From assembly GCF_030758935.1 (NCBI RefSeq), contig NZ_CP132333.1, positions 2,480,992 through 2,544,991 on the forward strand: a stretch of DNA of 64,000 nucleotides. The letters run 5' to 3'. The stretch's first letter is position 1, and each line of letters starts with the position of its first letter. Under the pieces are notes generated by a model, which was not told where the DNA came from, made no database searches, and saw nothing but the letters and a program-made list of their open reading frames with translations. Below, piece after piece: positions 13,553 through 60,265 of the stretch. Made by a program: the position numbers and the translations under genes. The stretch is from Geothrix sp. PMB-07. Lineage in GTDB: Bacteria; Acidobacteriota; Holophagae; Holophagales; Holophagaceae.

Positions 13553-13825
13553 GTCACGGATTCACATAGACGGACACTGATCAGACTTGCTCTTGCCCCT
13601 TGTTCATCCGTGGCCGAAAAATAAAGGAATTTTGAAAGCGGAGGTGAGCGGAAGGGCTGAGGAAAGCTGAGAAAACCACATGCAGTTCTCAGCTCTCCTC
13701 CGCCCCTCGGCCACCCTCCGCTTATTCCATTCCTTTTCTACCGGTGGGTCCGAAGGAAACGCATGAGCCGCGGGTTCACGCGGATGGAACCAGACCGATA
13801 TTCATCCGTTTTTCATCCGCGTGAG
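13553..13825. repeat. cluster of three different palindromes in the nitrilase / SnoaL gap
   Basis: The gap between the nitrilase gene and the leftward SnoaL-like gene holds three imperfect inverted repeats side by side. 13553-13617 has arms CACGGATTCACATAGACGG and TTCATCCGTGGCC. About 13624-13736 has arms near AAAGCGGAGGTGAGCGG and CCACCCTCCGCTTATTCC, with GCTGAGAA/TTCTCAGC at the inner end. About 13771-13825 has arms GGTTCACGCGGATGGA and TCATCCGCGTGAGC. The first and third belong to the CACGGAT-type family; the second is another sequence. No gene is visible here. Confidence 0.6.
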
Positions 13826-19981: not shown

Positions 19982-19998
19982 CCTCAGCGATTTCCTTG

Positions 19999-20070
19999 GC
20001 CACAGATGAACACGGATGAACTCAGATCAGGTTCGCCCCTGACCCGTGTTCATCCGTGTTCATCTGTGGC
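19999..20070. repeat. gene-less palindrome of the CCACAGATGAACACGG family
   Basis: A perfect 23-base inverted repeat (19999-20021 with 20048-20070; arms begin GCCACAGATGAACACGG) with a 26-base centre. Each arm is built of 10-base near-repeats (CACAGATGAA, CACGGATGAA). It lies between the convergent tpiA and zinc-ribbon genes and could serve as a terminator. The same arms flank the GxxExxY gene at 52,810-53,226. Confidence 0.85.
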
Positions 20071-20076
20071 GAAAAC

Positions 20077-29025: not shown

Positions 29026-29172
29026 TTCAACATTTCAGGGACTCCCAGGCAATGAGCCAAGTCAACCCGGATCCGGATCGAGCTTGGCGCTGCGGGGCAG
29101 CGTCAAGTGACCAGGCCGGACCGGGTTGAAGCCAGTTCAGCATTTCAGGGATTCCCAGGCAATGAGCCAAGT
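29026..29172. repeat. 110-bp duplication of a gene 3' end around a hairpin
   Basis: The last 36 bases of the glycosyltransferase gene and one base beyond its stop (29136-29172) recur as 29026-29062 with two mismatches. Both contain AATGAGCCAAGT. Between the copies, 29063-29128 folds as a two-part hairpin: outer arms CAACCCGGATCCGG / CCGGACCGGGTTG, inner arms CTTGGCGCTGC / GCAGCGTCAAG with a three-base loop. It lies between rnhB and the glycosyltransferase gene. The hairpin may terminate the glycosyltransferase transcript. Confidence 0.75.
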
Positions 29173-35238: not shown

Positions 35239-35258
35239 CCACAGAAAAGAGCAGATTG

Positions 35259-35335
35259 GCCGCAGATGAACACAGATTCACACGGATAAAAGACCGATTA
35301 GCCGTTCATCCGTGTTTATCGGTGTTCGTCCGTGA
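35259..35335. repeat. gene-less palindrome of the CCACAGATGAACACGG family
   Basis: The left arm (35259-35290) reads GCCGCAGATGAACACAG onward; the right arm (35303-35335) is an imperfect reverse complement reading GTTCATCCGTG onward. The centre is only 12 bases. It lies between the convergent HEAT-like and elbB genes. Same family as 19,999-20,070 and the flanks of the GxxExxY gene. Confidence 0.75.
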
Positions 35336-35372
35336 CAAAAAAGCATGGCTGAACATGGACGTTGAATCCGCC

Positions 35373-46629: not shown

Positions 46630-47904
46630 ATGCCCGATCAATCATTCAGCCCTAAGAATCTGTTGGCGATGCTTAAGAAGGCCGATTTCCGATCCGTGCC
46701 GAGTCTTACTTGGGCGGCCTATCGGAAGTTATGCGTTGAGGAAGCTATTCAATCTTCCACCAGCAGATTCAATGGAGTTAACCCCATAACTAGATTTCAT
46801 CTTAAGAAGAAATCAGCTTATCGAATTAATAATATTGGCAATATGCTTGTCATCAGAAAGTTGAATTACAATTTAATAAATATATTTAATATAAAATATG
46901 CATGTCGTTCCACTATAATTTCAAATTTAATACATTTTATAAAAGAAGGTATTCCTTATCGTATATACAGATTGGATGTATCACAATTTTATGAATCATT
47001 TGACCATTTAGATATTAAAAATAGAATATCAAGCTGTAAAAAAATCAATCCAATTACAAAAAATCTGACATTTGCATTTTTAGACTATTCCCTTGGTGCT
47101 GGTTCGGCGGGTTTGCCCCGAGGTATTTCGTTGAGCTCTACTATATCTGAGATGATGATGGAGGACTTTGACAAAGAAATTAGGTCATGCAAATCAATAT
47201 ATTTTTATTCTAGATATGTTGATGATATTGTTATAATTACAAATGCATCGGAAGAAAGAGAAGATTTTATAAATTTTGTTCAAAACATACTACCACATGG
47301 TTTGCGTTTAAATCCAAAGAAGCAACAAGTTTGTGAAGCACTTCAAGTTGCTCCACAAAAAACATCAAAGCGTCCTTTGATTAAACGTATAATATGTACG
47401 TTTGATTATTTAGGCTATCAATTTACCATTTCTGACCCAGCGAGAGCAGACATTGATACAGAAGACAAATACAGAAATGTTGTTGTTGATATTTCAAATA
47501 ATAAAATAAATAAAATAAAGACAAGAATAGCGCGATCAGTTCGAGACTATTTAGTTAACCCTAAAAGAGATGAAAAACTGTTGATTGATCGCATTAAATA
47601 TCTAACCAGTAATTTTTATATTTTTAATAAAAATTCAGGGATGCGCAACCTGGCGGGTATATATTATGGTTTTCCGGCTTTGAGTAAAAATGCAAGCGGT
47701 CTATTAATTTTGGATGCATTTTTAAGAAATTTAATACTTTCCAGATCTATTAGAATATATATTGGTTCATTGCGTATTATTGATTCGAATTTAAAACGTA
47801 AATTACTATCTCATAAATTTTGCCTTGGCTTTGAGATGCGTAGATTTATTTACTTTGCTCCCAAACGTATGCAAGAAATCCAGGAGTGTTGGAAATATGA
47901 GTAG
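46630..47904 (+). CDS. drt3a: defence-associated reverse transcriptase Drt3a (UG3-type)
   Basis: 424 residues with a complete reverse transcriptase palm. Motif A is YRLDVSQFYESFDHLD (about 115), motif B GSAGLPRGISLSSTISEMMMEDFD, and the catalytic YVDD box is at about 196-199 (YSRYVDDIVIITN), then LNPKKQQV and a CTFDYLGYQF thumb entry. There is no maturase or HNH domain, so it is not a group II intron protein. A second, longer RT gene starts inside its last codons. A tandem pair of small-plus-large RTs is the layout of DRT type 3 (UG3 + UG8). Codons are very AT-rich except in the first about 40 residues. A weak AGG precedes the ATG. Confidence 0.82.
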   Translation: MPDQSFSPKNLLAMLKKADFRSVPSLTWAAYRKLCVEEAIQSSTSRFNGVNPITRFHLKKKSAYRINNIGNMLVIRKLNYNLINIFNIKYACRSTIISNLIHFIKEGIPYRIYRLDVSQFYESFDHLDIKNRISSCKKINPITKNLTFAFLDYSLGAGSAGLPRGISLSSTISEMMMEDFDKEIRSCKSIYFYSRYVDDIVIITNASEEREDFINFVQNILPHGLRLNPKKQQVCEALQVAPQKTSKRPLIKRIICTFDYLGYQFTISDPARADIDTEDKYRNVVVDISNNKINKIKTRIARSVRDYLVNPKRDEKLLIDRIKYLTSNFYIFNKNSGMRNLAGIYYGFPALSKNASGLLILDAFLRNLILSRSIRIYIGSLRIIDSNLKRKLLSHKFCLGFEMRRFIYFAPKRMQEIQECWKYE

Positions 47905-49876
47905 AAGAGGAAATAAGCGAAAAATTAAACGCAGTGATTACACGCGTGTAATCTTAACAGAGACGTTACCATTTGAAACGCCAGTTATATTTTCAAACGA
48001 TGGACTATATGGACAAATTAATGACTTGAACTCGGCTTCACTTCTTCGCCAAAATTTATTAAAAGCACTTATATTTGGAGAAGGAGAAGGAGATAGATCA
48101 AGGCCGACTGTGCCACATATTTTTAAAATTAAAAAAAATTCGACTGAATTTAGAAGATTAGCCTTGGTTCACCCAAGATCTCAATGGATTATCAAAGAAT
48201 TCTATCAAAAATATGAAACACTTATGTTGTATCACTGTGCGCACAGTCCAGCTTCAATTCGTTCACCTGAAAAAATTGCTAGTGCTTTTTTCATGCGCAG
48301 TGACATGGAGAACCTTCACCAATACAAAACTGGTCATGTTGGACTGCAAAAGATCGATGAAATAACTAAACATGTCCCAAGCTTCTTCTCTTATCGCGGA
48401 TTTGATAGATTATATAAATTTTTTGAATCTAGAGATTATTTTTTATTAGAGAAAAAATATTCATTCTTTCAGTCTCTTGATGTTTCAAAATGTTTTGACA
48501 GTATATATACACATGTTATGTCGTGGTCTGTTAAGGATAAAGAATTTACAAAAAAACATGTTACTGTTGAATCAACATTTGCACAAGAATTTGATTGGGT
48601 GATGCGCCATTGCAATCACAATGAAACCAATGGCATTGTGATAGGTCCAGAAATAAGCCGGATATTTTCAGAAATTATATTTCAAAAAATTGACTTACTT
48701 ACTATAAAAAAAATAAAAGAAAAGAAGGGGATGATTTACGGTGAGCACTATGAATTTAGAAGGTATGTAGATGATGTTTACATTTTTTCCAACAAGCAAT
48801 TAGATTGCAAGATCGTATATGATGTATATTCAGATGTGTTGACAGAATTTAATCTTAGATCGAATTCTTCAAAATCTATTTTGCTTTCACGCCCATTTAT
48901 TACGAACAAATCAAGATTAATACATGAAATAGGTATTGAAGTTGATGATTTTATTGATAAATTCCTAGAGTCAAGTGAAGATGGGAAATATCTAATTCCA
49001 AAGCGCATAAATTCTGTTTGGAAATTAACACAAAAACACATAGAAGTAATAAAATCGACTTGCTCTTATAATGATATTAATTATGATGGTGTTTCCGGTT
49101 ATTTGATTGGCGTTTTTGAACAAAGAATTAAAAAAATAGTGTCAATATCAAAATTTGATAACTCAGATCATTCGCAGATGATTTATAGGGATGCAATTTT
49201 TGTTTTACTTGATATAATGTTCTTTCTTTATCAAATTTCGCCATCTGTGAGCGCGTCATACAAAATTTGCACGTCAATCATTTTGTTAATAAGATTCTCT
49301 AGAAAATTTTTACCTGAATACAAAGATAATATTGCACAGCGAATATATGAACTGTCTGGAGATCTTTTGTCACGTAGTAAGAATGACGAAATTGATCATG
49401 TAGAAGGGTTTTTGCCATTAGAAGTTTTAAATATTATATTGGGCATAAGGGAGCTTGGGCCTGGTTTTTTGTTACCATGCGATATTCTGGAAAAAGTATT
49501 TATTAATCAAAAATCAATATCATATTTTGATGCCATAAGCTGTTTATTTTACATTAGAAATGATGCTGAATACAAAACATTGAAAGATAAGGTTATTTTT
49601 GCAATCAATGAAAAGCTTATGAATCTAAAAGATATTAGAGTTAATGCTGAGAAAGCCTATCTATTACTCGATATGCTTGGTTGTCCTTATGTATCTCGAC
49701 GAAAGAAGACGATTTGGTTGAATCGGGCCTGTAAGGCCTTAGACGTTGTAATCCCGGGCCCCTCAGTCGAAGCCCTCTTTTTCGATGAAGAAGATAAATG
49801 GCATGCTCACATCGACTGGGCGGAAGTGGATCTTCTCAACGTGCTGGAAAAGAAACTATTGAAACAAGTTTATTGA
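47897..49876 (+). CDS. drt3b: defence-associated reverse transcriptase Drt3b (UG8-type)
   Basis: 659 residues, starting eight bases before the drt3a stop, with AGGAG about 11 bases upstream of ATG 47897. RT motif A is LDVSKCFDSIYTH (about 194), motif B region ETNGIVIGPEISRIFSEIIF, catalytic YVDD about 290 (FRRYVDDVYIFSN), then a long helical C-terminal region of about 300 residues with no nuclease motif I can see. The N terminus (TRVILTETLPFETPVIFSNDGLYGQ) matches what I recall of Drt3b proteins. The pair is translationally coupled. The last 60 codons are less AT-rich than the rest. The gene is followed by a structured non-coding stretch. Confidence 0.82.
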   Translation: MSRRGNKRKIKRSDYTRVILTETLPFETPVIFSNDGLYGQINDLNSASLLRQNLLKALIFGEGEGDRSRPTVPHIFKIKKNSTEFRRLALVHPRSQWIIKEFYQKYETLMLYHCAHSPASIRSPEKIASAFFMRSDMENLHQYKTGHVGLQKIDEITKHVPSFFSYRGFDRLYKFFESRDYFLLEKKYSFFQSLDVSKCFDSIYTHVMSWSVKDKEFTKKHVTVESTFAQEFDWVMRHCNHNETNGIVIGPEISRIFSEIIFQKIDLLTIKKIKEKKGMIYGEHYEFRRYVDDVYIFSNKQLDCKIVYDVYSDVLTEFNLRSNSSKSILLSRPFITNKSRLIHEIGIEVDDFIDKFLESSEDGKYLIPKRINSVWKLTQKHIEVIKSTCSYNDINYDGVSGYLIGVFEQRIKKIVSISKFDNSDHSQMIYRDAIFVLLDIMFFLYQISPSVSASYKICTSIILLIRFSRKFLPEYKDNIAQRIYELSGDLLSRSKNDEIDHVEGFLPLEVLNIILGIRELGPGFLLPCDILEKVFINQKSISYFDAISCLFYIRNDAEYKTLKDKVIFAINEKLMNLKDIRVNAEKAYLLLDMLGCPYVSRRKKTIWLNRACKALDVVIPGPSVEALFFDEEDKWHAHIDWAEVDLLNVLEKKLLKQVY

Positions 49877-50207
49877 CAGGATATTGTCATTGCGGAAGGT
49901 GGCAAAGATCCCTCTTCGGATGACCTTTTGGTCATCCGCTTCTCTGGGTGAATGGCAGGAAAGGGTTTAAATCTGATCCTTGAGTGCTGGAAACCCATGA
50001 GCACCGAGATTCGTCTCGTTGCACACACTTTGCGGAGATTGTCACCTTCCACCTGTTTAGCGAGAAAGGCCTGCCGAGAGACAATCTCGACGAAAGTAGT
50101 TATGGACTTTCCATTCTTATTTTCTGATCCCTGAGAGTCGGCAATACTCTTCAGTTAGCATGTGAATTCCAATAGACAAAAGGCTCTGGATTGCTCCAGA
50201 GCCTTTT
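49877..50207 (+). ncRNA. candidate DRT3-associated ncRNA with CACACAC tract
   Basis: A non-coding stretch directly after drt3b with ordered helices: 49917-49925/49930-49938 (CGGATGACC, TTTT loop); GGGTTT/AAACCC at 49963/49991; a five-bp stem with UUCG loop at 50005-50018; and a nine-bp stem GAGATTGTC/GACAATCTC at 50035/50080. Between the UUCG hairpin and the last stem lies an unpaired TTGCACACACTTTGC with CACACAC at 50022-50028. A 13-bp terminator hairpin closes it at 50178-50207. DRT3 systems are known to use an ncRNA, and I recall an ACACAC template being reported. Exact ends, promoter and expression are unknown. Confidence 0.6.
50178..50207. terminator. strong intrinsic terminator, usable in both directions
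   Basis: A perfect 13-bp stem AAAAGGCTCTGGA / TCCAGAGCCTTTT with loop TTGC. It ends the drt3/ncRNA transcript from the left and lies 14 bases after the stop of the leftward gene 50222-50920. Confidence 0.9.
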
Positions 50208-50221
50208 GATATTCATACAAT

Positions 50222-50920
50222 CTATTTCTTATTCTTACGAAATTTCTCTAATGCCCTCAAAGCATTTGGATTTCCTTTACGAGCTGAGGTCTTGGTGAAA
50301 CCAAGGGCAGATTTCCCAAAGTTCTTTTGGTAAGCAGAGATGATATCTGTGACTTCGCTGTGGAACTCCCTGCTATTTACAACGGTTAAGAAGGCTTCCA
50401 CCATTTCAATTGGACTGCCCTTGAATCTCTTACAGATGCTCTTGGCTACCGCTTCTACTGTCTTTTCAGCTTTCCCAGCCCTCTGGCCGGTCCTCTGACT
50501 CTTTACAGGCCGAATCTCCTTCATCATGGTCAGAGCCTGGAAGTATTCAATCCCTGCTTTGTCCAATGCCTCTAGGAAGCTCACGTAGTTTTTCTCAAGC
50601 TTCCCATACAGAATAAAGGCTTGTTTGAAATCAGGCTTGTCTTCAGCTTCTTTAAAGATTCGACTCATCACGGAAGCAGGAACAGAAGCCCTACCGAGCT
50701 TGTATTCCGCTTTGTTTTCCTTTCCAGTCCCCTTTTCATAGGTGAAGGGATTCTTGGTAGGAGTAGCCATGTTCATTACCTCTGGGTTAGTGGCTGGTTC
50801 ATCAGCCAAGGTTGGTAGGAGAGTAGCAGGTGATTCTGAAGGGATGATTATAAATTTGTCCCTCTTCTTTCTGAACGGCCCTGTAAGGCCAGTCTTGATA
50901 TCTTTGAAGATACTATTCAT
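50222..50920 (-). CDS. unknown basic island protein
   Basis: 232 residues, rich in Lys. The N-terminal 80 residues look disordered (Pro, Thr, Asn, Ala); the rest is helical (AEYKLGRASVPASVMSRIFKEAEDKPDFKQAFILYGKLEKNYVSFLEAL...), with an unrecognised basic C terminus. It converges on the candidate ncRNA and shares its terminator. Not a family I know; it could be an accessory of the RT cassette or an island housekeeping protein. Its base composition is intermediate between island and chromosome. Confidence 0.6.
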   Translation of the reverse strand: MNSIFKDIKTGLTGPFRKKRDKFIIIPSESPATLLPTLADEPATNPEVMNMATPTKNPFTYEKGTGKENKAEYKLGRASVPASVMSRIFKEAEDKPDFKQAFILYGKLEKNYVSFLEALDKAGIEYFQALTMMKEIRPVKSQRTGQRAGKAEKTVEAVAKSICKRFKGSPIEMVEAFLTVVNSREFHSEVTDIISAYQKNFGKSALGFTKTSARKGNPNALRALEKFRKNKK

Positions 50921-51199
50921 AACTCAATTCCTCTCACCACGCAACATATAAATGTAAAAATTTAGATCAATCAACCATCATTCTTACATTATAAATCTAC
51001 AAGCACTCAACATCCAGTCAACCTCTTTTTTAAAATAAATTTAACCATATTGCTACGGTTACATGTTTTATCTATATGAACTTGTTGTGATTTTCTATTT
51101 CAGAGGATGCTAGTAGCGAAATCCTTATGCACGCTCCGCTCTCCGACTTTTACCTAGAGTTCAGTGGGGCTCCATCCGATATGTAGGTGGAGAACGGGT

Positions 51200-51427
51200 G
51201 TGAAACTAATGAACCAGAGGCAATTAAAGGAATACTTTATTACTATTCGCGGCAAAAAACTATCAAGTGAAGCTTTAACAGCTTGCTTAATAAAAGGAAT
51301 GCCATATACAATTATTGGCAAAAGAAAGCACTTCAACCCAATTTCAGTTGTAGATTGGCTAGAAAAGCAAGAAACAGTATCTAAATATTATATTACTAAC
51401 AAATCAAGACAAATAAGAAGAGGTTGA
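51200..51427 (+). CDS. excisionase-like (AlpA/MerR-type HTH) protein
   Basis: 75 residues starting at GTG 51200, which has GGAG seven bases upstream (ATG 51209 is the alternative without a good site). The layout QLKEYFITIRGKKLSSEALTACLIKGMPYTIIGKRKHFNPISVVDWLEKQE is a winged-helix excisionase or AlpA pattern: helix-turn-helix, then a wing, then DWLEK. It is one base upstream of the integrase gene, the usual place of a recombination directionality factor. Confidence 0.65.
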   Translation: MKLMNQRQLKEYFITIRGKKLSSEALTACLIKGMPYTIIGKRKHFNPISVVDWLEKQETVSKYYITNKSRQIRRG

Positions 51428-51428
51428 A

Positions 51429-52475
51429 ATGTCTCGACACAAAAACATATATCTTCGTGGTTCCGTATATTATTATCGCTTCGTTGTTAATGAGATGTTG
51501 TACCATAACTCAACACACTGTAAGGATATCGAATCCGCTATTCAAGTATACGAACAGATCTACAAAGAAACTATATTAGGTAATGTTGGCATTAAAAAAA
51601 TTCCTACTTTTAATTTCATTAAGGACAAGTGGCTTGAGAAGCATTGCCACTATTCAGATACGCACATTCGAACGGCTAAAATTTTTTACGATAAACACAT
51701 TTGCCCAGTTTTTGGCAATAAATCTCTAAATCGTATTGACACAGAAATCATATCTGATCTAGTAAATGATTTTCTAAAAACACACTCTAAAGGAAGTACC
51801 AATTCATTAATAAAATACATTAATATTGTATTCAATTATGCTATAGAATTAGAATATATTAAAATCAAACCATACAAAATTAAAAGGCAGAAGCCAGACA
51901 AGAAGCCAAAACAATTAGTGCATATTGACGAAATTAAATCATTTATTGATTTTTGCTATAAAAACCACAAAAGCAAACAAACTCCATTAATGATTACATT
52001 AGGTTTACTTACAGGAATGCGAGAAGGTGAAATTTTAGGTGCTGAATGGTCTTGGTTCAACGAATTAGAGCAAACCCTTACTGTTCATAAATCTAAGACT
52101 GGTGGTTTCAGAAAGATATTTCTAGATAACTACCTGTTCAATAAAATAAAAACATATAAGGCAGAATCAGCTAACTCCCTGCCCACACCGATTCTCATGT
52201 TTCCAGCTAGAGACAAAGGCCAGCATCCCAGAAGCTTTATCACTTGGGCACTTAGGAAGCTTTCAAAGAAATACGGCATGACTGGTAAGTTCTCTGCGCA
52301 CTCTCTGCGTCACTCGTACATATCTAATCAACATGCCAGCGGAACAGCCCTGGCAGACATTCAAGAAATCGTCGGACATGAAAACCTAGAGACTACGGCT
52401 GGGTACATCCATGCAAATGTCAAAAGACAGAAGGAAGCACAAGACAGACTTTCCAAGCTTGCTAACCTTGCATGA
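51429..52475 (+). CDS. int: tyrosine-type site-specific integrase
   Basis: 348 residues. A short N-terminal arm-binding region and a core-binding domain (about 60-150) precede the catalytic domain, with all key residues: Arg in TGMREGE (about 198), His-x-x-Arg in HSLRHSY (about 291-294), His in VGHENLE (about 315) and Tyr in TAGYIH (about 326). It sits 95 bases from attR, as in many islands. AT-rich codons. It presumably catalyses integration at TTCCACGGAGGTAAGTGAT, which is not a tRNA gene. Confidence 0.93.
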   Translation: MSRHKNIYLRGSVYYYRFVVNEMLYHNSTHCKDIESAIQVYEQIYKETILGNVGIKKIPTFNFIKDKWLEKHCHYSDTHIRTAKIFYDKHICPVFGNKSLNRIDTEIISDLVNDFLKTHSKGSTNSLIKYINIVFNYAIELEYIKIKPYKIKRQKPDKKPKQLVHIDEIKSFIDFCYKNHKSKQTPLMITLGLLTGMREGEILGAEWSWFNELEQTLTVHKSKTGGFRKIFLDNYLFNKIKTYKAESANSLPTPILMFPARDKGQHPRSFITWALRKLSKKYGMTGKFSAHSLRHSYISNQHASGTALADIQEIVGHENLETTAGYIHANVKRQKEAQDRLSKLANLA

Positions 52476-52570: not shown

Positions 52571-52589
52571 TTCCACGGAGGTAAGTGAT
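52571..52589 (+). repeat. attR, 19-bp direct repeat
   Basis: TTCCACGGAGGTAAGTGAT, identical to attL. This copy supplies the ribosome site GGAGG and the first two bases of the ATG of the DUF350 gene. Confidence 0.92.
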
Positions 52590-52806
52590 GTTCACGAACC
52601 AGCTGCTGCACCAGCTCCTCGTCGCTGCCGTCTTCTCTGCCCTGGGTCTCGTCATTCTGGGTGTGGTGTGGCTGATCCTCATCAAGGTGCTGCCCTTCTC
52701 GCTCCGCAAGGAGATGGAGGATGACCAGAACACGGCCCTGGGCATCGTCCTGGGCTGCCTCATCCTCGGCATCAGCATCATCATCGCCGCCGCAATTCAT
52801 GGGTGA
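52588..52806 (+). CDS. DUF350-family membrane protein
   Basis: 72 residues with two membrane helices (about 8-32 and 50-70; ALGIVLGCLILGISIIIAAA) and a short charged loop EMEDDQN, the pattern of one DUF350 unit. The GGAGG site and most of the start codon lie in attR. Before the island arrived this gene would have begun within the stop codon of the 59-residue gene, so it belongs to the DUF4178 operon although 13 kb now separate them. Function unknown; the family accompanies polyamine and PspA-type membrane genes. Confidence 0.8.
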   Translation: MFTNQLLHQLLVAAVFSALGLVILGVVWLILIKVLPFSLRKEMEDDQNTALGIVLGCLILGISIIIAAAIHG

Positions 52807-52809
52807 TAG

Positions 52810-53226
52810 GCCACAGATGAACACGGATGAACACGGATTGGATGCCGTGTGTGAAGCCGTGATCGGGGCGGCATTCCAGGTGAGCAACACCTTGGGGGCA
52901 GGATTCCTAGAAAAGGTCTATGAGAACGCTCTCGCTCATGAACTGAGGAAATCGGGGCTCCCCGTGGCGCAGCAATACCCGATCAAGGTGATGTATGACG
53001 GGGTGGTCGCAGGAGAATATGTCGCAGACCTGTTGGTGGCGGGCTCCATCCTTGTGGAACTGAAATGTGTCAAAGCCATCGAGGATATTCACCTTGCTCA
53101 GTGCATCAACTATCTACGTGCAACGGGTCTCAGGCGCGGTCTGATCCTCAACTTCCAATTTCCCAAAGTCGGCATCAAGCGAGTCTCTCTATGACCCATC
53201 CGTGTTTATCCGTGTTCATCCGTGGC
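52810..53226. mobile_element. GxxExxY gene flanked by inverted copies of the dispersed palindrome
   Basis: A 417-bp unit with 29-base inverted ends (52810-52838 and 53198-53226, two mismatches, GCCACAGATGAACACGG outermost). The enclosed reading frame begins inside the left end and stops four bases before the right end. Gene-less palindromes with the same arms are at 19,999-20,070 and 35,259-35,335. The layout suggests an autonomous element with non-autonomous derivatives. This is inference; no target duplication is evident. Confidence 0.5.
52817..53194 (+). CDS. GxxExxY protein (PD-(D/E)XK nuclease-like)
   Basis: 125 residues. The family signature is at about 29-35 (GFLEKVY) and the nuclease-like Asp...Glu-x-Lys at 71 and 81-83 (VADLLVAGSILVELKC), matching the PDDEXK_3/GxxExxY family. 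Its first codons (MNTDEHG) are encoded by the left inverted repeat; an earlier in-frame ATG at 52799 overlaps the DUF350 stop. No ribosome site is clear, so it might be read by coupling to DUF350. Biochemical function of the family is unknown to me. GC-rich like the chromosome. Confidence 0.75.
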   Translation: MNTDEHGLDAVCEAVIGAAFQVSNTLGAGFLEKVYENALAHELRKSGLPVAQQYPIKVMYDGVVAGEYVADLLVAGSILVELKCVKAIEDIHLAQCINYLRATGLRRGLILNFQFPKVGIKRVSL

Positions 53227-54763
53227 TAATTCGGTTCTTAACAATCCCGCACCCCAGCCCACGCTCAAGGCGCCGCTGCTCTTCATCAGCGTGCTGCTCA
53301 TCGCCTCCTGCGGGCTGATCTACGAGCTGGTGGCGGGGACGCTTTCCAGCTACCTGCTGGGGGATTCGGTCACGCAGTTCTCCACGGTCATCGGCGTCTA
53401 CCTCAGCGCCATGGGCCTGGGCTCCTGGCTGTCGAAGTTCCTGCAGCGCGGTCTGGCCCGACGCTTCGTGGATCTGGAATTGGCCGTGGCCCTGGTAGGT
53501 GGTTTCTCGGCCCCCATCCTCTTCCAGGCCTTCGCCCACACCCATGCCTTCCGGGTGGTGCTCTATGGCGAGGTGATGGCCGTGGGCACGTTGGTGGGCC
53601 TGGAGATCCCCATCCTCATGCGCATCCTGCAGGACCAGGTGCGTTTCAAGGATCTGATCGCGGGCGTGCTTACCCTCGACTACATCGGCGCCCTGTTCGC
53701 CTCGCTGCTCTTCCCCCTGCTGCTCATGCCCAAGCTGGGCCTGGTGCGCACCAGCCTGCTCTTCGGCCTCCTGAACGCCGCCGTGGGGCTCTGGTCCACC
53801 CATCTGCTGCAGTCCCAGCTGGGCCCCACGCGCATGATCCGCCTGCGCTGTGCGGTGGTGATGGCATTGCTGGCTGTGGGCCTGGTATTCGCCGGGAAAT
53901 TCACTCTGGCCGTGGAAGAGGAGATCTTCGCGGACGAGATCGTCTACGCCAAGGACAGCGCCTATCAGCGCATCGTGCTCACCCGCGGCCGGGGCAGCTT
54001 TCAGCTCTTCCTCAACGGCAATCTGCAGTTCTCCAGCGCCGATGAATACCGCTACCACGAGGCCCTGGTGCATCCTGCCTTCGGCCTGCGCCCGGAGGCG
54101 AAGCGCGTGCTGATCTGCGGCGGCGGCGATGGCCTGGCCGTGCGCGAAGTTCTGAAGCATCCCTCCGTGCAGGAGGTCGTGCTGGTGGATCTCGATCCAG
54201 CCATGACCGACATGGCCCGCAAGCAGCCCATGGTACGCCAGCTCAACGGCGCCGCCCTGGAGGATCCCCGGGTGAAGGTGGTGAACGCCGACGCCATGGT
54301 GTGGCTGCAGGAAGCCACCGCCGCGCCCTTCGACCTCGCCTACGTGGATTTCCCCGATCCCAACACCTACGCCCTGGGCAAGCTCTACACGTCGCGCTTC
54401 TACCGTCTCCTGCAGCGCCGCCTGACGGAGGACGCCATGATCACGGTGCAGAGCACGTCGCCCCTCATGGCGCGGCAATCGTTCTGGTGCATCGCCGCCA
54501 CCATGGAGTCGTCCGGCCTGAAGGTGCGCCCCTACCACCTGGCCGTGCCCTCCTTCGGCGTCTGGGGTTTCGCCTTGGCTTCGAAACGCGATTTCGACGT
54601 GCCCACCCATGTGCTGCCGGGCCTTCGCCACCTCTCCGATGAAGCCACCACGGCCATGTTCGCCTTCCCCAAAGACATGGACCGCGTCCCCACGGAAGTG
54701 AACCGCCTGGACAACCAGGTGCTGGTGCACCTCTACGCCCGGGAATGGCGGCGATGGTCGTGA
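53222..54763 (+). CDS. membrane-bound spermidine/spermine synthase-like aminopropyltransferase
   Basis: 513 residues. The N-terminal about 230 residues form six or seven membrane helices (LLFISVLLIASCGLIYELVAGTLSSYLLG). The C-terminal part is a polyamine synthase domain with QRIVLTRGRGSFQLFLNGNLQFSSADEYRYHE and the SAM-type loop RVLICGGGDGLAVREVL (about 295-312), then YVDFPDPN. The start I use is GTG 53222, lying in the last bases of the palindrome end with no ribosome site, so the element may have replaced the original leader. It follows DUF350 in the DUF4178 operon. Confidence 0.85.
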   Translation: MANSVLNNPAPQPTLKAPLLFISVLLIASCGLIYELVAGTLSSYLLGDSVTQFSTVIGVYLSAMGLGSWLSKFLQRGLARRFVDLELAVALVGGFSAPILFQAFAHTHAFRVVLYGEVMAVGTLVGLEIPILMRILQDQVRFKDLIAGVLTLDYIGALFASLLFPLLLMPKLGLVRTSLLFGLLNAAVGLWSTHLLQSQLGPTRMIRLRCAVVMALLAVGLVFAGKFTLAVEEEIFADEIVYAKDSAYQRIVLTRGRGSFQLFLNGNLQFSSADEYRYHEALVHPAFGLRPEAKRVLICGGGDGLAVREVLKHPSVQEVVLVDLDPAMTDMARKQPMVRQLNGAALEDPRVKVVNADAMVWLQEATAAPFDLAYVDFPDPNTYALGKLYTSRFYRLLQRRLTEDAMITVQSTSPLMARQSFWCIAATMESSGLKVRPYHLAVPSFGVWGFALASKRDFDVPTHVLPGLRHLSDEATTAMFAFPKDMDRVPTEVNRLDNQVLVHLYAREWRRWS

Positions 54764-60177: not shown

Positions 60178-60265
60178 CTTTTCACCACCAAGACACGAAG
60201 ACACCAAGAAAAACGCAAGAACATCCTTTTCGGTTCTTGGTGCCTTGGTGTCTTGGTGGTGAATC
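60178..60265. repeat. palindrome, CACCAAGACACGAAGACACC family
   Basis: The left arm (60178-60222) has ACACGAAG/ACACCAAG units every 9-10 bases; the right arm (60233-60265) is the reverse complement, ending TTGGTGGTGAATC. It separates the convergent NrfD and aldo-keto reductase genes and can serve as a terminator. A remnant of the same family lies at about 24,753-24,845. Confidence 0.8.

Follow-up and report, generated by a model that had tools for sequence, protein, structure and literature searches.

The window, that is, the whole stretch of DNA analysed here (64,000 nucleotides from Geothrix sp. PMB-07), contains a GxxExxY gene enclosed by inverted repeat ends and lying between two genes of an operon. 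This locus and the gene-less palindromes elsewhere in the window are as follows.

52588..52806, + strand: DUF350 gene, the upstream neighbour.
52810..52841, + strand: left end, GC followed by three units of about 10 bp (CACAGATGAA CACGGATGAA CACGGAT).
52817..53194, + strand: GxxExxY gene for a PD-(D/E)XK nuclease-like protein of 125 aa, from the open reading frame, the TIGR04256 and PF13366 profiles and a structure model.
53195..53226, - strand: right end, an inverted copy of the left, containing the GTG start of the listed downstream open reading frame.
53222..54763, + strand: spermidine-synthase-like gene, the downstream neighbour (listed start GTG at 53222).
19996..20073: gene-less palindrome of the same end family as the window gene, arms 89% complementary, site empty in five of seven relatives read.
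35254..35339: gene-less palindrome of the same end family.
13555..13612: a further gene-less palindrome of this family, decayed, 72% to the copy at 19996.
60181..60263: gene-less palindrome of another end family (CACCAAGACACGAAG); another GxxExxY gene of the genome (L034) is flanked by the same end type.

The inverted arms (52810-52841 and 53195-53226, with first bases GCCACAG and GCCACGG) are 91% complementary. The reading frame opens with the ATG at 52817 within the left arm and closes with the TGA at 53194 directly before the right arm (125 codons), and the first codons of the protein, MNTDEHG, are encoded by the repeat itself. The mechanical list of reading frames offers a longer alternative start at 52721 (157 aa); we set the start at 52817 because the TIGR04256 family profile begins only at residue 12 of the 157-aa reading. 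The protein match begins inside the left arm in 36 of the 62 armed loci of other organisms, with a query that contained these residues. The preliminary description had the gene starting inside one repeat end and stopping at the inverted other end, within an operon whose flanking frames are unbroken, and both points are confirmed: DUF350 ends at 52806, the GTG of the spermidine-synthase-like gene lies at 53222 inside the right end, and both frames are intact. In empty alleles of relatives, as read by eye, the upstream and downstream genes overlap by 8 bases at ATGGGTGA. The element alters the operon in that it occupies the place of this overlap and its right end supplies the downstream GTG start.

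Just upstream of DUF350, 47825-52475 encodes a Drt3b-type reverse transcriptase (PADLOC, E 8e-209) and a phage-type integrase, which suggests a defence-bearing island ending beside the DUF350 operon. Two direct repeats of 37 nt, 110 nt apart and 95% alike, lie at 29026-29172. A known RNA as the identity of the repeats was ruled out, there being no Rfam match in the window at gathering scores.

The window protein scores 140 bits against TIGR04256 (cut-off 35) and 138.6 bits against PF13366 (cut-off 22), exceeding both curated cut-offs for membership of the GxxExxY/PDDEXK_3 family. Residues G29, E32, Y35, D71, E81, K83, A94 and Q95 are invariant in 41 sequences. The D...ExK motif among them (D71, E81, K83), with the core fold in a structure model (pLDDT 95.8), meets the definition of the PD-(D/E)XK superfamily, to which the preliminary description had rightly assigned the protein. 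The best match of the model is a Cas4 (Z 10.2), with lambda-type exonucleases further down and archaeal Hjc at Z about 7, below the caution line of Z 8 under which matches may reflect common arrangements. The protein is thus modelled as a PD-(D/E)XK enzyme nearest to Cas4; its likeness to Cas4 and Hjc, in predicted fold and catalytic motif, is a similarity of fold only and shows no function. No other domain was found in the protein (only PF13366 at E<=1), and no solved relative by sequence (best E 0.21).

With this one query, relatives were found in 8 of 72,556 plasmid records and 0 of 50,697 phage records, and no PHROG matched; by this measure it is not a gene usually carried on phages or plasmids, and the counts fit a chromosomal, vertically kept enzyme. 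A known anti-phage defence gene was likewise ruled out, since PADLOC gave no match at E<=0.01. A GxxExxY gene has been reported from an algal virus. Open-licence papers, as far as their available parts go, name GxxExxY (in passing) and PF13366; none was found that links either to repeats, and a description elsewhere is not excluded.

By the preliminary description's own terms, the idea of a repeat element would have fallen if GxxExxY genes were usually unflanked, or if the locus were identical in all relatives with no empty site. On the first point, the 150 nt on the downstream side of each gene were reverse-complemented and compared with the 150 nt upstream, a pair passing at score 30. Of 61 genomes of the bacterial family, a profile search detected GxxExxY genes in 48. 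One genome, G005, was left out of the flank statistics because 28 of its 30 fetched loci share one repeated transposase stretch. Of 74 profile-found genes compared, 59 have matching inverted ends, against 1 of 1,212 shifted windows; only 6.4% of 740 mispaired flanks pass, so the pairing in this set is element-specific. With 20 more family genes the figure is 76 of 94, in 36 genomes; these 94 were hand-picked from a longer list of matches. Shifted windows were drawn only from loci long enough, and stretches of 1.55 kb gave none. Among the 18 family genes without matching ends, 13 have a one-sided palindrome within 300 nt (control windows, 7 of 398), and five have no palindrome nearby, four of them in G015, where one is shown beside a DDE transposase.

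Matching ends were also found at 14 of 25 further loci of the phylum, one of which belongs to the window's genus (control windows, 3 of 894), and at 62 of 80 cross-phylum loci (5 of 2,694), whose titles name Planctomycetota, Cyanobacteria, Deltaproteobacteria, Chloroflexi, Methanosarcinales and others. The cross-phylum loci were ranked with a query whose first residues come from the end, which favours flanked loci; the profile-found sets (74, 94 and 25 genes) are free of this bias. Mispaired flanks pass in 36% of the cross-phylum set because that protein clade shares one end type. Plasmid-borne genes have matching ends in three of eight cases (Bacteroides, Bernardetia, Sphingomonas). GxxExxY genes are thus usually flanked in the family, phylum and cross-phylum sets, though for the most part the ends share the design and not the family, and the same-locus controls and the independent genomes rule out chance or an assembly artefact.

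Several loci depart from the simple arrangement. Three GxxExxY loci with similar downstream sequence (L061 in G010, L102 in G039, L125 in G044) have complete palindromes upstream only. On a Fusobacteria plasmid (L411) the gene lies between direct, not inverted, repeats containing ATCCGTG, as judged by eye. Two contigs of metagenome-assembled genomes that carry such elements (L201, L217) are titled Bordetella parapertussis, a label that is probably wrong.

By eye the ends fall into many families, including CACxGATGAA, CACxGAGG, CACCAAGG, CACGAAGG, CGCGAATG, CGCAGATGA, ACAGGATTA and GCGGAGGAA, all of one design, in which each arm is a run of near-repeats. Arms match themselves at 0.53 at lag 10, as against 0.20-0.31 at other lags from 4 to 15 and 0.28-0.31 in shuffled arms; among 90 representatives, 62 have a best period of 10 and 18 one of 9. 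Since a helical turn of DNA takes about ten bases, the units of an arm would face the same side of it. In 15 of 135 elements the arms have opposite polarity, as if the gene lay between two palindromes and not inside one. The GxxExxY gene lies between inverted ends built of units of about 10 bp, and gene-less forms share these ends.

The two gene-less copies of the window ends noted earlier in the window were recovered, at 19996-20073 and 35254-35339. Allowing up to two mismatches, CACAGATGAACACGGAT has 77 matches in the whole genome (4.24 Mb in a single contig) and the pattern read backwards has none, so the window ends are not due to chance. These matches form 31 places, of which one has the gene; this is the tally of gene-bearing and gene-less copies that had been proposed as a check, for the window's own genome. 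At one site of genome G000 (L021, 721049-721266) a palindrome of CACCAAGGCGCC type is nested in the loop of a GAT-type palindrome.

Empty sites in sister genomes, the second check proposed, were found at both junctions that we followed. The window junction and a junction at pyrG were each read in 30 loci, counting that of the window's genome itself and one that was too short for a verdict; allele states here and at the gene-less sites were read by eye. At the window junction 5 loci have the gene-bearing element and 18 are empty. The others have a decayed gene (G048), a remnant (G045), palindromes of other families (G052, G069) or a DUF4268 gene (G039, between palindrome arms; G066, one arm seen). 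At the pyrG junction the gene is present in 8 loci, 15 are empty, 3 have another palindrome family and 3 have a shortened or decayed copy (G053; G043, where a further palindrome is nested in it; G045, a possible remnant). The condition of a locus identical in all relatives is thus not met. Counting decayed genes as present, the gene changes state at least eight times on the pyrG tree of 29 genomes. In one metagenome-assembled genome (G056) pyrG occurs on two contigs, one beside a GxxExxY match, and mixed populations may blur a few states.

Of 11 gene-less sites probed, six were read, with 40 alleles in relatives: 15 are empty or nearly so, 22 have a palindrome and 3 have other DNA. In 14 of the 22 the palindrome is of a different family from that of the window genome at the site. 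At one and the same intercistronic gap, each form of the element is found in some species and missing from sister species. No target-site duplication could be resolved by eye in these 40 alleles of six sites, the empty alleles being too diverged near the junction, and exact junctions are unresolvable in the alleles compared. GCCACA stands at the element's start position in 7 of the 18 empty window-junction alleles, by target preference or by chance.

These alleles bear on an explanation by homing, in which the palindromes spread by other means and the GxxExxY protein is a homing endonuclease that cuts gene-less palindromes of its own family and copies its gene into their loop. The gene does sit where the loop of a palindrome would be, the ends of that palindrome are equal to those of gene-less copies, and a nuclease fold would suffice. 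Such a history would pass through a gene-less palindrome of the gene's own family, and no intact one was seen at either junction, where the 30 loci each are empty, gene-bearing, decayed or occupied by other families. Nor does homing explain the abundance of repeats in trans described below, unless it also maintains them, and we judge it unlikely.

Ends and protein vary together. In Mantel tests protein distance correlates with end distance at r=0.45 for 40 profile-found loci and r=0.51 for 90 flank clusters, with none of 5,000 permutations as high in either. One element was taken per flank cluster, N-terminal residues that ends could encode were left out, and 44 of 179 elements without arms were dropped, the remaining 135 giving the 90 clusters. 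As the ends are linked to the gene, co-variation alone could reflect joint descent. At the pyrG locus both arms have CACC units in some species and CGCC units in others, and the two ends appear to change together. At four loci common to several species, silent sites differ by 0.50-0.82 and dN/dS of the GxxExxY gene, computable for 26 of 38 pairs, is 0.045-0.151, which shows purifying selection on the protein. Arms at these loci have a median identity of 86-100% (local alignment, which favours high values). Protein and ends are conserved even with silent sites close to saturation.

Purifying selection and persistence at one locus in several species would also be expected of a host nuclease that polices or resolves palindromes (as cruciforms) and is kept beside them by selection, another enzyme mobilising both. 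The several GxxExxY copies per genome and the Hjc-like model matches, only at Z about 7, are compatible with this. Policing, however, requires neither ends that co-vary with the protein nor a gene placed inside them, and 49 of 61 genomes lack Y1 transposases, the enzymes known to move such palindromes and the only movers sought across whole genomes. We regard a host role of this kind as quite improbable. The 49 include genomes with 104, 110 and 90 repeats, which rules out Y1/RAYT as the general mover; such transposases do occur in the window's own genome (7 matches, six alike).

The abundance of gene-less repeats was compared with the protein clades encoded in the same genome, for one end type. 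Median counts of GAT-type repeats are 30 in genomes with a GAT-clade protein (29 genomes), 4 in those with other clades only (19) and 0 in those without a gene (13); across the 61 genomes, GAT clade differs from other clades at p=4e-5, and other clades from no gene at p=0.013. Within the genus the medians are 38 and 6 (p=1e-4). The GAT clade was defined at >=53% identity, repeat counts were copied by hand, and the test is correlative, without correction for phylogeny or shared descent. Gene-less palindromes also match the gene ends of their own genome: the score in eight genomes is 43.1 against a permuted 27.7 (0 of 5,000 permutations as high), and without G000, 36.4 against 26.7 (40 of 5,000). 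Gene-less copies of the tested type are abundant mainly where the matching protein clade is encoded.

There are exceptions. No gene was found in G057, which has 24 repeats (its assembly is 86% complete); G016 has 90 repeats and its only close GAT-clade match is a 64-aa fragment, for which it was placed with the other clades; G010 has a GAT-clade member and no repeats; and G022 has palindromes without a GxxExxY gene. The single GxxExxY gene of G003 has CACGAAGG ends, and a gene-less palindrome of CACGAAGG type occurs at one site, but another site has a CACCAAG palindrome. Palindromes in G041, G044 and G051 lack a good match among the GxxExxY genes retrieved there. The relation of autonomous to non-autonomous forms proposed in the preliminary description gains support from the correlation in trans and from co-variation; that the gene-bearing form is autonomous is not proven, and cutting or copying by the protein remains inference.

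The palindromes might instead be a general hitch-hiking vehicle by which the GxxExxY gene is merely carried. Other genes can ride between the arms: in G039 (L380:3571-4690) a DUF4268 gene, candidate defence PDC-S11 of PADLOC, lies between CACCAAG-type arms, and in G066 (L147) such a gene lies beside one arm. In G005, which has 50 GxxExxY matches, the stretch shared by 28 of 30 loci, up to 1.4 kb long, includes the gene for an IS4/5-type DDE transposase together with a full or shortened GxxExxY gene inside palindromic ends (L066-L094). Passive carriage predicts neither ends that follow the protein clade in most genes nor matching gene-less repeats in trans, and we think it very improbable. With a transposase in the shared stretch, the 50 matches of G005 were in turn rejected as proof of self-mobility. 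At one locus of G015 (L121) the end of a DDE transposase lies upstream of the GxxExxY gene. The four-helix-bundle family TIGR02436, a possible second cargo, was found in 7 of 31 genomes.

We favour, as probable though not secure, the reading that the window locus represents a mobile palindromic repeat in its gene-bearing form, one that resembles REPIN/RAYT systems and uses an unrelated nuclease, cutting and movement being inferred. That gene and palindromes form one system we hold with high confidence. Mechanistically, the protein would bind the helically phased units of each arm and nick or cut at the palindrome, whether this is a duplex, a cruciform or a single-stranded hairpin, acting both in cis and in trans; copies of the palindrome, some including the gene and some not, would then be placed in intergenic gaps by host repair. 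We know of no strand-transfer activity of a lone PD-(D/E)XK hydrolase, for which reason completion by host repair appears the likeliest route. There are no cleavage, binding or insertion data, and on this nuclease step our judgement is evenly divided.

An equally balanced case can be made for a wider proposal: a class of mobile repeats, with autonomous and non-autonomous forms, that occurs in some archaea as well as many bacterial phyla and depends on a stand-alone PD-(D/E)XK nuclease recognising arm units phased at 10 bp; protein clades and end families would have co-diversified into many systems competing for the same intercistronic gaps. If true, a nuclease family named only by its motif would acquire a testable function, and palindromic repeats of many phyla, such as those of CACxGATGAACACxGAT, CACxGAGGCACxGAG and CACCAAGGCACCAAG type, an origin. 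The REPIN/RAYT way of life, with a vertically kept enzyme and many non-autonomous palindromes, would have arisen a second time with an unrelated enzyme.

The likeness to REP/REPIN-RAYT systems lies in dispersed intergenic palindromes, a gene flanked by palindromes that are dispersed in the same genome, a repeat type that goes with the gene clade, and purifying selection on the gene; RAYT systems have all of these. Gene-less places also outnumber the gene, by 30 to 1 in the window's genome. The differences lie in the parts. RAYT is an HUH/Y1 tyrosine transposase and the window enzyme is PD-(D/E)XK, with only PF13366 in the protein at E<=1, so that the requirement for an encoded HUH/Y1 transposase fails; window-type arms are near-repeats of 10-bp period, and the gene often lies in the loop of one palindrome. 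REP repeats have a GTAG or CGTC tag at one end according to the title of PMC3733652, a paper available in part, and no such tag occurs in the window ends or the other listed ends. The system is REPIN/RAYT-like by way of life and fails RAYT membership by its parts, and it stands a fair chance of meriting a separate class. No link was seen between the window repeats and the intrastrand triplex repeats of PMC4666352, as far as the part available goes.

As in insertion sequences with their MITEs, gene-bearing and gene-less elements share inverted ends and empty sites exist; unlike them, the element encodes no DDE or Y1 transposase, its single gene being PDDEXK_3 only, the window-type ends are internally repeated, and no target-site duplication was resolved. 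A nuclease encoded within the mobile unit is shared with homing endonucleases and with the PD-(D/E)XK nucleases of mobile elements, Rpn and TnsA, from which the window element differs in having no partner gene and in occupying intergenic gaps, not one fixed gene.
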